Position numbers and translations under genes: made by a program
Notes under the pieces: generated by a model
Told to the model about the DNA's origin: nothing
What the model saw: only the letters and a program-made list of their open reading frames with translations
The model's database searches: none
In this document: in pieces, positions 11,869 through 15,041 of the stretch
Layout of the letters: each line of letters starts with the position of its first letter
Position numbering within the stretch: the first letter of the stretch is position 1
DNA from: a virus
Strand: one strand, 5' to 3'
IMG/VR virus record: IMGVR_UViG_3300033273_000117
Span: 1 to 21,412 of that record
Length of the DNA: 21,412 nt

Positions 11869-12303
11869 TTAGCTATCTTTAAGATCTTTATTACTCTTAT
11901 AGATTCTTTCCAAAGTTTTTCTAGCATCTTCTACTGAAGATACATATCCCATATTCTTTGTTACTTCTGTTTTACCAGTAGAAGAAGATGATGAGTTTTT
12001 CAATAGAGGCATATCATCGTCATCATCTTCTAGATATCTATTGTAAAACTCAATAACATTTTCATCAGTTATTTCAGTCATAGTAATAATCTTATCAAGT
12101 TTTACAACAAAGAAATCATCACCTGGTATTGACATCCAAGGTTTTATTTTTATACCGTAAGAATTACGGATAGAGATTACCTTCATCATTACTGGGTTTT
12201 GTAAGATCAGTACAGGGTCTCCATCGTTCTCATCTAGACAGACAAGGGCAAATATTTCTTCACCAGTAATAAGTTTTATAGAACTATAGAATTCATCTCC
12301 CAT
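11869..12303 (-). CDS. Hypothetical protein with Sm-like N-terminal segment, 144 aa
   Basis: Family not named. The first about 75 residues (SSIKLITGEEIFALVCLDE, then DPVLILQNPVMMKV and IKPWMSIPGDDFFVVKLDKI) have a strand pattern like the Sm/LSm-like small beta-barrel proteins that many marine T4-like phages encode: 'kLitGeEIia.v ... lkNPv'. The C-terminal half is acidic (EDDDDDMPLL) followed by a Ser-rich linker (SSSSSTG) and a helix SSVEDARKTLERIYKSN. The ATG overlaps the uvsW stop as TAATG, so it is translated with uvsW. RNA binding, as for other Sm-like folds, is possible but only inferred. Confidence 0.8.
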   Translation of the reverse strand: MGDEFYSSIKLITGEEIFALVCLDENDGDPVLILQNPVMMKVISIRNSYGIKIKPWMSIPGDDFFVVKLDKIITMTEITDENVIEFYNRYLEDDDDDMPLLKNSSSSSTGKTEVTKNMGYVSSVEDARKTLERIYKSNKDLKDS

Positions 12304-13766
12304 TAGTTTTTAAGCGGAATGTTTACAATATCGTAGTTAAAGTTTTCTTCGTTATAAACTTTAATTCTTTCTATCAGATGATTAAGGGTATAATTTCTCC
12401 TAGATTTGTAGGAAATGTCGTCAGCAATATCATATAAAGTTGCTTTTGTTTTATTATTGCCTTTTCTGAGCACTCGTCCAATGCTTTGGAGATTTCTGAT
12501 TCTGGATTTTGAAGGAGAAGCAAAAATAACATTATGGAGGTTTTTAATGTTAATACCGGTAGAGAACGTTCCGTAAGAAGCAACAATAATAGCGTTATTT
12601 TCTCTCTCCGTAATTTCCCTTACCTTCTCCCTATCTTCTGTCGCCACTCCACCATGAACAAAGAAGACGTGACGTTCATCTGCCTTAGAGTTATTTATTA
12701 AATCGAATAGGGGTTGTCCGTGCCCTTCAACACGGGAGAATAGTATGAGCGTATTACCTTTAAGATCAAGGGCAAGGTTACGTATAAACTTGTTTCGTCT
12801 ATCATGATTGATAATGTACTGGACTTCTTCTTCAAAGTTTTCAAACTTATGGGCAGGGTGTTTCAATAGAAGCACGTTGATATCTAACTTAGCAACGTGC
12901 CCCTTCTTCATCAGTTCTTCGGTCCTGATGATCTTGTAGGAGGGACCGAATAATCCCTCCAATACCCATTTATGAGTCTGTGTTCCGTCTAGTGTGCCTG
13001 TAAAACCGAAACGATATTTACAGTCAGCAAGCTTAGACATTATAGATATTAAAGACTTAGACTTAAACTGGTGTGCTTCATCTCCAACAACCACATTAAA
13101 TCTTGAGAAGTATTTGCGGGGAAGTTTGTAGATGGACTGCCAGGTCGTGATGATGACTTGTGAGTCGGTCTCTCTTTCTTTCCCCGCATAGATCTTGTGG
13201 CAATATGAACCTACGTCCCACCCATAGTCTTCAAAGTCTTTATACATCTGTTCTACAAGGGAAGTCGTTGGCACGACTATCAGAGTATTTTGTCCTTTCT
13301 CAACGTAGTATCTCACAATCGAGTATATCATCAACGACTTTCCAGAAGCAGTTGGAGATATCAATAGCTTTCTATTATGTCTTAGGGCGTCGTATACTCC
13401 CTCTACTTGATATTCGCGGGGGGAGTAATTACAAATAGCATTCATATAATCCTTCACACCTTCCTTTGAAATGAAGTCATTGACCTCAAAAGGAAGACCA
13501 TAGAATTTGTTGTCAGCAAACTCATAGGTATATTCATGGTTCTCACAGAACCTCGTTAGTTTATCCAATAACCCGACATATATCTCACCAGTCTGGGTAT
13601 TGAATAAACGAATTTTTCCGTCCCAGTACTTACTACGGTACTGAGGCATAAACTTTGCTCCTGGAACCTCAAACGTAAACTGGTCTGCTAACTCGTAGTA
13701 AACGTGAGGTTCCGCTTGAACTTGAAGGTATACTTCATTCTTCTTCGATATAATCAAATGAGACAT
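12303..13766 (-). CDS. uvsW: Recombination DNA/RNA helicase (T4 UvsW)
   Basis: A superfamily 2 helicase that, in T4, unwinds R-loops at origins, reverses stalled forks and promotes branch migration, turning replication from origin-dependent to recombination-dependent. Motifs: the RxYQ segment SPREYQVEGVYDAL, Walker A SPTASGKSL (137 to 145), DEAH (229 to 232) in VVVGDEAHQF, motif III GFTGTL, and motif VI QSIGRVLRKG. The N-terminal about 100 residues match the small UvsW substrate-binding domain (FEVPGAKFMPQYRSKYWDG). Length 487 aa against 503 in T4. A late promoter and a hairpin precede the ATG at 13766. As in T4, late expression fits its role in shutting off origin initiation. Confidence 0.96.
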   Translation of the reverse strand: MSHLIISKKNEVYLQVQAEPHVYYELADQFTFEVPGAKFMPQYRSKYWDGKIRLFNTQTGEIYVGLLDKLTRFCENHEYTYEFADNKFYGLPFEVNDFISKEGVKDYMNAICNYSPREYQVEGVYDALRHNRKLLISPTASGKSLMIYSIVRYYVEKGQNTLIVVPTTSLVEQMYKDFEDYGWDVGSYCHKIYAGKERETDSQVIITTWQSIYKLPRKYFSRFNVVVGDEAHQFKSKSLISIMSKLADCKYRFGFTGTLDGTQTHKWVLEGLFGPSYKIIRTEELMKKGHVAKLDINVLLLKHPAHKFENFEEEVQYIINHDRRNKFIRNLALDLKGNTLILFSRVEGHGQPLFDLINNSKADERHVFFVHGGVATEDREKVREITERENNAIIVASYGTFSTGINIKNLHNVIFASPSKSRIRNLQSIGRVLRKGNNKTKATLYDIADDISYKSRRNYTLNHLIERIKVYNEENFNYDIVNIPLKN

Positions 13767-13767
13767 A

Positions 13768-13790
13768 ACCCATAAGTATCACCTATGGGT
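13768..13790 (-). promoter_or_regulatory. Hairpin in the uvsW leader, predicted translation switch
   Basis: On the minus strand ACCCATA ... TATGGGT forms a perfect 7-bp stem with a 9-base loop GGTGATACT; the 3' arm ends one base before the uvsW ATG. The Shine-Dalgarno-like AGGTGA lies across the loop. A late transcript starting six bases after the AATAAATA box would begin at about 13784 and lack most of the 5' arm, so only read-through RNA could fold it. Confidence 0.65.
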
Positions 13791-13797
13791 ATTTATT
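13790..13797 (-). promoter_or_regulatory. T4-type late promoter before uvsW
   Basis: The minus strand reads GAATAAATACCC. AATAAATA is one mismatch from TATAAATA and overlaps the TAA stop of the small upstream gene. It sits 23 bases from the uvsW ATG and immediately next to the hairpin. Confidence 0.75.
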
Positions 13798-14008
13798 CTC
13801 CCATCTTAAACGTATATTCCAACAACAACCTTTCGAAAAAGTCTTTTAGTTCTTCTAGTCTTTGCTTCTTATCTGGGCACGACACCCAATTTTGTAAATG
13901 AAGACTTATTGACTCGTGAATCTGTCTTACATCTTCGATCCCCATATCCATTGAGATATAGGGAAGGTTTTCATCAAAGTCTTTTTCGTAAAGATGGTCG
14001 TCGTCCAT
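13793..14008 (-). CDS. Small acidic hypothetical protein, 71 aa
   Basis: Family not recognised. I place the start at the ATG at 14008 (MDDDHLYEKDFDENLPYI), which shares its A with the uvsY stop as TAATG; the ten extra residues of the longer frame would lie inside uvsY. The N-terminus is acidic. The rest is helical (GIEDVRQIHESISLHLQNW, then QRLEELKDFFERLLLEYTF) and could make a two-helix bundle. Its position between uvsY and uvsW, with coupling to uvsY, suggests a minor partner in recombination, but nothing in the sequence proves it. Confidence 0.75.
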   Translation of the reverse strand: MDDDHLYEKDFDENLPYISMDMGIEDVRQIHESISLHLQNWVSCPDKKQRLEELKDFFERLLLEYTFKMGE

Positions 14009-14439
14009 TAGTTGAAACCTGCTTGGAAGCGATGCCACTCTATGGCATTCTTGATTTGAAAAGTTCTGTTTGAAATAGTTTTGATAATATCTTCAAGGAA
14101 CTTCAACATCACATCATAATATCGGATCTTGATATCCAGTTTAGTTAGTTTCTCATCTGCCTCCAGATGCCTCTGTAAGGCGTCCTTTTCTCTAACTTTA
14201 TATGGGAAAGGTTCTTCCTCGTACACCTCTGCTGGTGCCTTTCCTGTGTAGTAATTGTAGCGTTCTAGTTTTACTTTGTTGTAAGTCTCTCTTGCTTTTT
14301 CGCGCAACAAAGTAATAGTATTATAGACAGTATAATACTTAGCGTGAAGTTGGGGTATTTTTAAAGACTCATCATGTAGATTATCAGGGTCGATCTGAGA
14401 GTCACGCTCCCACATCTCCTGAATTTGGTCAAGGTTCAT
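14008..14439 (-). CDS. uvsY: Recombination mediator (T4 UvsY)
   Basis: UvsY loads the RecA-like UvsX recombinase onto single-stranded DNA coated with gp32. It is recognised from the N-terminal MNLDQIQEMWERDSQIDPDN segment, the LKIPQLHAKYYTVYN core that carries the LKARL-type DNA-binding region of the family, and the C-terminal ISNRTFQIKNAIEWHRFQAG oligomerisation helix. Length 143 aa against 137 in T4. The ATG overlaps the stop of the gp3-like gene (ATGA), so it is translated from the message started at 15006-15013 and also, perhaps, from upstream read-through. Its partner uvsX is not in this window. Confidence 0.93.
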   Translation of the reverse strand: MNLDQIQEMWERDSQIDPDNLHDESLKIPQLHAKYYTVYNTITLLREKARETYNKVKLERYNYYTGKAPAEVYEEEPFPYKVREKDALQRHLEADEKLTKLDIKIRYYDVMLKFLEDIIKTISNRTFQIKNAIEWHRFQAGFN

Positions 14440-14990
14440 AAGCGAGTTCTGCCGTCAGAATCTACGATAATATACACAGTATACTTGAATGTTGCTTCTG
14501 CTGTAAAGTACTGTATGTCAGTTGCTGAAGTGTCAAACTCCAGGGACGTTAGGGACACTGGGAACAGGTCTCTGAACTTTACAATACTGTTTACTCTATA
14601 ATTGCTGTTTAGGATGGACAGACTACCATCACTAAACTGCTCCTGTAGTTGATCTTTTACACCAAATTCGTCGGTTGTGAGGTCAATAAAGTCTTGTGGA
14701 GTTTCTGGGAAACCAAGTCCAGTCAACCAGTTGTGAACCGCCATGTAGTTGGTCATGTCCTCATCAACCAAGAACCTAAGGGTTAGGTCACCATAGGTTA
14801 GTTTTTCACCAGGAATATCAATATCCTTAAGGTATGATGACTGTGTTGCCAACTGTAAGTTTATTTCTGGCAGTCTAGCACTAGTGCAGAAAAAATCAAC
14901 CTTTGGGTGCTTAGACAAACTAAACTGAAACCCAGTTGGTGATAAGAAGTTTCTGTTTTGTATTTGGTTTCTAAACTGTGAAACAGTCAT
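14436..14990 (-). CDS. 3: Tail tube-related protein, probably tail completion protein gp3
   Basis: A 184-aa virion protein. The sequence (NFLSPTGFQFSLSKHPKVDFFC; then DIPGEKLTYGDLTLRFLVDED; NYMAVHNWLTGLG; and a C-terminal TAEATFKYTVYIIVD strand) has the beta-sandwich pattern of the myovirus tail tube and terminator proteins. T4 gp3 is 176 aa and caps the tail tube at the head-proximal end. In related cyanophages the gene between 23 and uvsY is annotated gp3, which matches here by position and length. A tube-initiator such as gp54 or gp48 is less likely because those are longer. It has its own late promoter right after the gene 23 terminator. Confidence 0.75.
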   Translation of the reverse strand: MTVSQFRNQIQNRNFLSPTGFQFSLSKHPKVDFFCTSARLPEINLQLATQSSYLKDIDIPGEKLTYGDLTLRFLVDEDMTNYMAVHNWLTGLGFPETPQDFIDLTTDEFGVKDQLQEQFSDGSLSILNSNYRVNSIVKFRDLFPVSLTSLEFDTSATDIQYFTAEATFKYTVYIIVDSDGRTRL

Positions 14991-15005: not shown

Positions 15006-15013
15006 TATTTAGA
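15006..15013 (-). promoter_or_regulatory. T4-type late promoter before the gp3-like gene
   Basis: The minus strand reads TCTAAATACAAATAAAAC. TCTAAATA is one mismatch from TATAAATA and is the same octamer as the gene 23 promoter. It directly follows the gene 23 terminator, 16 bases before the ATG. Confidence 0.7.
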
Positions 15014-15014
15014 T

Positions 15015-15041
15015 AAAAAAAGAGGGTCCGAAGACCCTCTT
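15015..15041 (-). terminator. Factor-independent terminator of gene 23
   Basis: The minus strand has an 8-bp stem AGAGGGTC/GACCCTCT with a UUCG tetraloop (15021-15040), extended by one A-T pair, followed by a run of T. It lies 21 bases after the gp23 stop and separates the capsid transcript from the recombination genes. Confidence 0.93.

Follow-up and report, generated by a model that had tools for sequence, protein, structure and literature searches.

In bacteriophage T4, the leaders of e, soc and 49 form an RNA helix over the Shine-Dalgarno sequence and/or the AUG on long early RNA (PMC3014915). Gene e has late promoters immediately upstream, whose RNA lacks the helix's 5' strand and is translated well, and 100-fold less lysozyme was obtained experimentally from the structured RNA (PMC3014915). 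In the leaders of T4 I-TevI and segB and of Aeh1 mobE, the late promoter is sited so that late RNA lacks an inhibitory hairpin, which is present on early/middle transcripts (PMC2988022). T4 uvsW is expressed from a late promoter (PMC3016281), and in cyanophages a late motif, NATAAATA, has been published (PMC2984593). Our search of the open-access literature retrieved no report of a uvsW hairpin or of a cyanophage promoter-in-hairpin switch, although a prior report is still possible, and no cyanophage start-site paper.

The DNA analysed here (hereafter the window) comprises the 21,412 bases of an IMG/VR record; nearest to it among annotated phages is Synechococcus phage S-SKS1, whose UvsW is 92% identical. 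On the minus strand, gp23 is followed by a terminator, the late box TCTAAATA, a gene-3-like ORF, uvsY, a small ORF, AATAAATA and uvsW, and downstream of uvsW lie an Sm-like ORF and then gp55, gp47 and gp46. Gene names are based on Pfam for uvsW, uvsY and the Sm-like ORF, and on annotated relatives with the same gene order (S-SKS1 and others) for the rest. The small ORF has no match in Pfam. The ORF after uvsW (11869-12303, minus strand), which carries the annotation 'methylamine utilization' in other phages of this kind, scores above the cut-off for Pfam Sm_like (PF16243).

Table 1. Features of the uvsY-uvsW region, in positions of the window.
Feature	Position	Strand	Basis and remarks
Intrinsic terminator after gp23	15011..15041	-	Stem 15041-15020 plus T run; 9 pairs, 5 G-C (pattern scan, sequence read)
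Late box TCTAAATA before gene-3-like ORF	15006..15013	-	Sequence read
Gene-3-like tail-completion ORF	14990-14436	-	
Putative sigma-70-type uvsY promoter TTTACA-N18-TATACT	14478..14507	-	Scan match 10 of 12; inside gene-3-like ORF
uvsY	14008..14439	-	Pfam UvsY PF11056, 4.9e-47
Small ORF, function not assigned	13793..14008	-	ORF list; stop codon TAA 13795-13793 inside late box
uvsW late promoter box AATAAATA	13790..13797	-	Distance to uvsW fixed among relatives
Hairpin 5' arm ACCCAUAGGU	13781..13790	-	Fold, covariation
Predicted late +1 (A of AGGUGA)	13784	-	T4 spacing rule
Shine-Dalgarno-like AGGUGA	13779..13784	-	Sequence, fold, pairing probabilities; AGGU within stem
Hairpin 3' arm ACUUAUGGGU	13768..13777	-	Fold, covariation
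uvsW helicase, 487 aa	12303..13766	-	Pfam UvsW_N, ResIII, Helicase_C; ATG 13766-13764

The heptamer ATAAATA occurs 8 times in the window against 2.8 expected, always on the minus strand and mostly just 5' of gene starts, which indicates that the uvsW box belongs to a real promoter set. This box (13797-13790) is followed by the 23 nt of CCCATAGGTGATACTTATGGGTT (13789-13767) and then by the uvsW ATG. It thus lies directly upstream of the gene, as in the T4-type embedded hairpins, and it is kept in 74 distinct junctions. In T4 late promoters the box occupies -13 to -6 relative to the start, and the same geometry would place the late +1 of uvsW within the 5' arm of a hairpin.

A previous sequence-only reading had described this hairpin as a perfect 7-bp inverted repeat directly abutting the box. 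The inverted repeat is confirmed on the minus strand, and the stem ends one base before the uvsW AUG, but in the minimum-energy fold the 7 bp are merely the outer part of a longer stem, ACCCAUAGGU/ACUUAUGGGU, of 10 pairs including one G-U, closed by the 3-nt loop GAU (-12.3 kcal/mol). Box and repeat are indeed adjacent, to the point of sharing one base, the last A of the box (13790) being the first base of the 5' arm. The AGGTGA motif, said to span stem and loop, does overlap the stem, but in the fold its AGGU is paired rather than looped out. The 29-nt segment has a z of -3.2, with 24 of 5000 dinucleotide shuffles equally stable. Given that 92 of the 21,383 minus-strand 29-mers of the window fold equally well, the fold in the window is by itself modest evidence, and the case rests on conservation and covariation. 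The plus-strand fold (z -1.55) was set aside as being on the wrong strand for uvsW RNA.

Junctions in other phages were found by tblastn with UvsW in IMG/VR contigs and named phages. A hairpin at -4 kcal/mol or better is present in 57 of the 74 distinct box-to-ATG junctions, with a median z over all 74 of about -3.0; this level is reached by 5 of 48 other late-box leaders of the same loci. The hairpin occurs with varied upstream genes and in unlike sequences (CCCAUAGGUGAU..., UUCAUAACUGAU..., UUUGUAUCAGAA..., AUCCUACGUUGG...). Among the named phages, P-SSM2, S-SKS1 and S-SRM01 carry it with a standard box, and their uvsW leaders rank 1 of 50, 1 of 51 and 5 of 68, respectively, in stability among the late-box leaders of each record. 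In ACG-2014f the hairpin follows a box-like TATACATA, and in Bellamy the start codon behind it is GTG. Sf-CH5 combines a late box with a stem of less regular form, and in S-CAM7 the stem includes the box and does not adjoin the ATG.

For the analysis of covariation, we used the gapless 23-nt class (35 sequences), in which no fitting was needed. Overall, 90.6% of the cells of this class are paired, a proportion that falls to 45% or less when the partner is slid, and both sides have changed at 7 of the 10 pairs. The covariation score is 0.443 as compared with 0.237 in shuffles (0 of 500 as high). Since the shuffles ignore relatedness, the changes were also mapped on the UvsW tree, where parsimony gave 14 double changes, 26 single changes that keep the pair and 30 changes to or from the unpaired state, the last mostly at the stem ends. 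The most frequent pair failures are located there as well (columns 8-30, 9-29 and 17-21 of alignment A1). Moreover, G-U cells outnumber A-C cells by 48 to 5, with 20 of the 48 at one pair and related by descent; this excess points to an RNA helix on the uvsW sense strand. The check for compensatory change at the uvsY-uvsW junction, proposed together with the hairpin, was thus passed in most relatives, although 17 of the 74 junctions with a late box have a weak fold or none. These comparisons bear out an RNA helix of the sense strand that covers the start of translation, is maintained by compensatory change and has the late +1 predicted within its 5' arm, and we consider it nearly certain that a conserved hairpin of this kind is real at the uvsW late promoter.

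The same data bear on whether the inverted repeat could act as DNA, as an operator through which a dimeric protein controls the late promoter. The repeat does overlap the promoter, and T4 late promoters can carry operators, for example at I-TevI (PMC2988022). An operator would be expected to show conserved letters without strand bias; here the letters vary while the pairing is kept, and the G-U bias, even with 20 of its 48 cells at one pair, is unexpected for a DNA dyad. We therefore rejected this explanation, which seems to us extremely improbable.

How might an RNA hairpin at this position act? RNA entering uvsW from upstream would contain both arms and form the stem, which would cover the ribosome-binding region and abut the AUG (or, in some phages, include it), so that uvsW would be poorly translated. 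Late transcription from AATAAATA, dependent on gp55, would give an RNA starting inside the 5' arm, on which the outer six pairs could not form and uvsW would be translated. Such a translational lock on read-through RNA, by-passed by late transcription, is in our judgement the most likely function of the hairpin; what we infer in proposing it are the ends of the transcripts, that read-through RNA exists and when it is made, and how large the translational effect is.

Folding calculations are consistent with this lock. From the predicted start at 13784, near which the sequence-only reading had also placed it, late RNA of the window would lose 6 of the 10 pairs. In the 57 hairpins, the pairs whose 5' base precedes the predicted +1 number 6 in the median, and 3 remain. 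With the 5' end at 13789 the leader has a computed fold of -10.7 kcal/mol, which weakens to -1.6 kcal/mol when the RNA starts at 13786 and to -0.7 kcal/mol when it starts at 13784. Opening the region from -16 to +6 at 25 C would cost 18.3 kcal/mol on read-through RNA of the window and 9.8 kcal/mol on late RNA; as the latter value reflects other folds that remain, late RNA is better described as less closed than as open. The corresponding medians are 13.9 and 8.5 kcal/mol for hairpin junctions, and 8.7 and 6.3 kcal/mol for the other junctions. A helix sequestering the Shine-Dalgarno sequence and/or the AUG on long RNA is in this way indicated by the predicted fold, the opening cost and the covariation alike. 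What the sequences establish is the conserved helix and its constant position with respect to box and AUG; they also predict that the stem is lost once the 5' end lies at ~13786 or further downstream.

It should be noted that some features of the leader speak against a lock. The 12 nt between AGGUGA and AUG make a long spacing, and a Shine-Dalgarno sequence is missing from several hairpin classes. The long spacing would suit a stem that assists expression, either by shortening the distance to the AUG or by protecting the 5' end of late RNA, and enhancing stems are known from T4 38 and 25 (PMC3014915). In our case, the Shine-Dalgarno sequence lies inside the stem rather than 5' of it, bases of the AUG are paired in 14 of the 57 hairpin junctions, and late RNA would be without the 5' arm unless it started at the box itself, all of which makes a helper role very unlikely. 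A further point against the lock is the stop codon of the upstream ORF in the box, as a terminating ribosome would occupy the 5' arm and could open the stem. In the window and many relatives this stop is 3 to 5 nt upstream of the 5' arm, a position suited to translational coupling, in which ribosomes finishing the small ORF would open the hairpin and translate uvsW in proportion on the long RNA. The hairpin nevertheless persists in junctions that have the end of uvsY a few or tens of nt upstream, or other genes in front, and it is always found at a late promoter, so that we regard coupling as improbable, if less so than a helper role.

A lock also needs RNA to act upon. In the window, uvsY and the small ORF lie upstream of uvsW on the same strand, and no terminator separates them from it. 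About 65 nt upstream of uvsY lies TTTACA-N18-TATACT, and a sigma-70-like match is found 5' of uvsY at 62 of 67 late-box loci, most of them with identical hexamers and spacing. The codons that carry the two elements (161-164 and 168-171) seldom differ synonymously within the late-box set (TTT, for instance, is used in 94 of 95, TAT in 96 of 100 and ACT in 93 of 98). Most of the codons around them change freely, and in the box-less set these codons themselves do vary. This is good evidence for a hidden DNA element within the gene-3-like coding sequence, and the element could be an early promoter that supplies read-through RNA. The read-through would probably arise from this promoter; the late promoter upstream of the gene-3-like ORF may contribute as well.

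The second of these sources opens the way to another purpose for the same hairpin, namely insulation of the dose: the stem would keep UvsW from being overproduced on strong read-through RNA, late RNA of the gene-3-like or gp23 promoters included, and the amount would be set by its own promoter alone. Late read-through is plausible because the window and 34 of 58 late-box relatives have a late box in front of the gene-3-like ORF. On the other hand, a strong terminator follows gp23, and the constrained sigma-70-like promoter before uvsY favours early read-through as one source at least. We hold dose insulation to be possible although rather unlikely; whether it or early-versus-late timing is the purpose, the lock would be the same.

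If the lock acts on read-through, hairpins might be lost where read-through is stopped. Loss of the hairpin was associated with an intervening terminator (Fisher p = 0.014), and adding the presence of the promoter gave p = 0.004, unadjusted. On independent pairs of the tree, this link to terminators or read-through had no support, with or without promoter presence. Moreover, four loci (L066, L080, L241 and L274) have the uvsY promoter, no terminator and a weak or absent hairpin, and they count against the lock since read-through is expected there. That the hairpin tracks expected read-through is thus only a trend.

The same layout was observed at other genes. In some relatives, a small HNH ORF (L058:1164-1472; relatives L376-L402) directly follows an intrinsic terminator, and a late box and then a covarying stem against the ATG are present in 19 of its 20 distinct leaders. 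The combination of terminator and hairpin suggests tight control of a possible homing endonuclease. T4 applies the design to homing endonucleases and to gene 49 (PMC2988022, PMC3014915). In S-SRM01, the late-box leaders more stable than that of uvsW include three (L457, L452 and L458) that precede an HNH-like ORF (TATAAATAAGTATGGTTAGTAACCATACTTTATG), a GIY-YIG-like ORF and a 170-aa ORF with no assigned function, the first two named by eye from sequence motifs. An ORF of the endonuclease VII family (L009:3872-4321; PF02945, the family of T4 gene 49) likewise has a late box, with a hairpin that is weak (-5.3 kcal/mol). In Bellamy (L434), the late box TCTAAATA and the stem GAGTTGCC/GGTGACTC precede an ORF of 151 aa that contains a hydrophobic stretch and might encode a membrane or lysis protein.

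Most of the other cyanophage clades sampled have neither box nor hairpin. In S-RIM8-, S-RIM2-, ACG-2014d-, P-TIM40-, S-CAM9- and S-T4-like phages this late box is absent, and uvsW overlaps or lies near the preceding gene. The switch would accordingly be confined to a part of the T4-like cyanophages, and late restriction by a hairpin is no general need. In some of the box-less clades (L158, L164, L165 and L174), short dyads or TATAAT-like motifs, such as CATAGTGT...ACACTATG, precede uvsW and are perhaps another promoter type.

As for the biological reason for late UvsW, which we likewise infer, the hairpin may serve to keep UvsW off until origin firing ends; this purpose is unproven, and its link rests on T4 (PMC3016281). 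In its widest form, the proposal would be that the promoter-in-hairpin switch extends through the clade and acts both on a core gene of replication and repair and on mobile endonucleases. Combined with an early promoter upstream of uvsY, hidden inside a structural gene, it would let a single uvsY-uvsW operon give UvsY early and UvsW late and so set the change from origin- to recombination-driven replication. We advance this whole picture tentatively, as somewhat short of an even chance. A regulatory design proven in T4 would in this manner be extended to abundant marine viruses, with evolutionary evidence for the RNA structure. UvsW ends origin-dependent replication in T4, the cultured phages P-SSM2 and S-SKS1 carry the hairpin, and clades with and without it offer a natural comparison for when UvsW must appear.

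The T4 orthologue of this helicase, to which the sequence-only reading had appealed as the model, turned out to be a poor precedent. T4 uvsW is convergent to uvsY, with segE upstream, unlike the same-strand order of the window, and inspection of the T4 record by eye showed no hairpin of this type upstream of its ATG; we rejected it on both grounds, the proper precedents being e, soc, 49 and I-TevI (PMC3014915). Another cyanophage leader, the psbA 5'-UTR of S-PM2d, likewise combines a gp55-type motif with a predicted hairpin (PMC5931967). The role proposed for that hairpin is in mRNA stability or light response, and the part of that paper drawn on here describes no promoter-in-hairpin switch (PMC5931967). 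With T4 e, soc and 49, the uvsW leader has in common the helix over the translation start; the genes differ, and the effect was shown for e and is proposed for uvsW. With I-TevI, segB and mobE it would share the placement of the promoter, although these encode endonucleases and uvsW a helicase of replication and repair, so that the cyanophage HNH ORF is their nearer parallel. Taken together, our analysis suggests that the mechanism itself is the one known from T4 (e, soc, 49 and I-TevI), and that uvsW in part of the T4-like cyanophages is a probable case of it.
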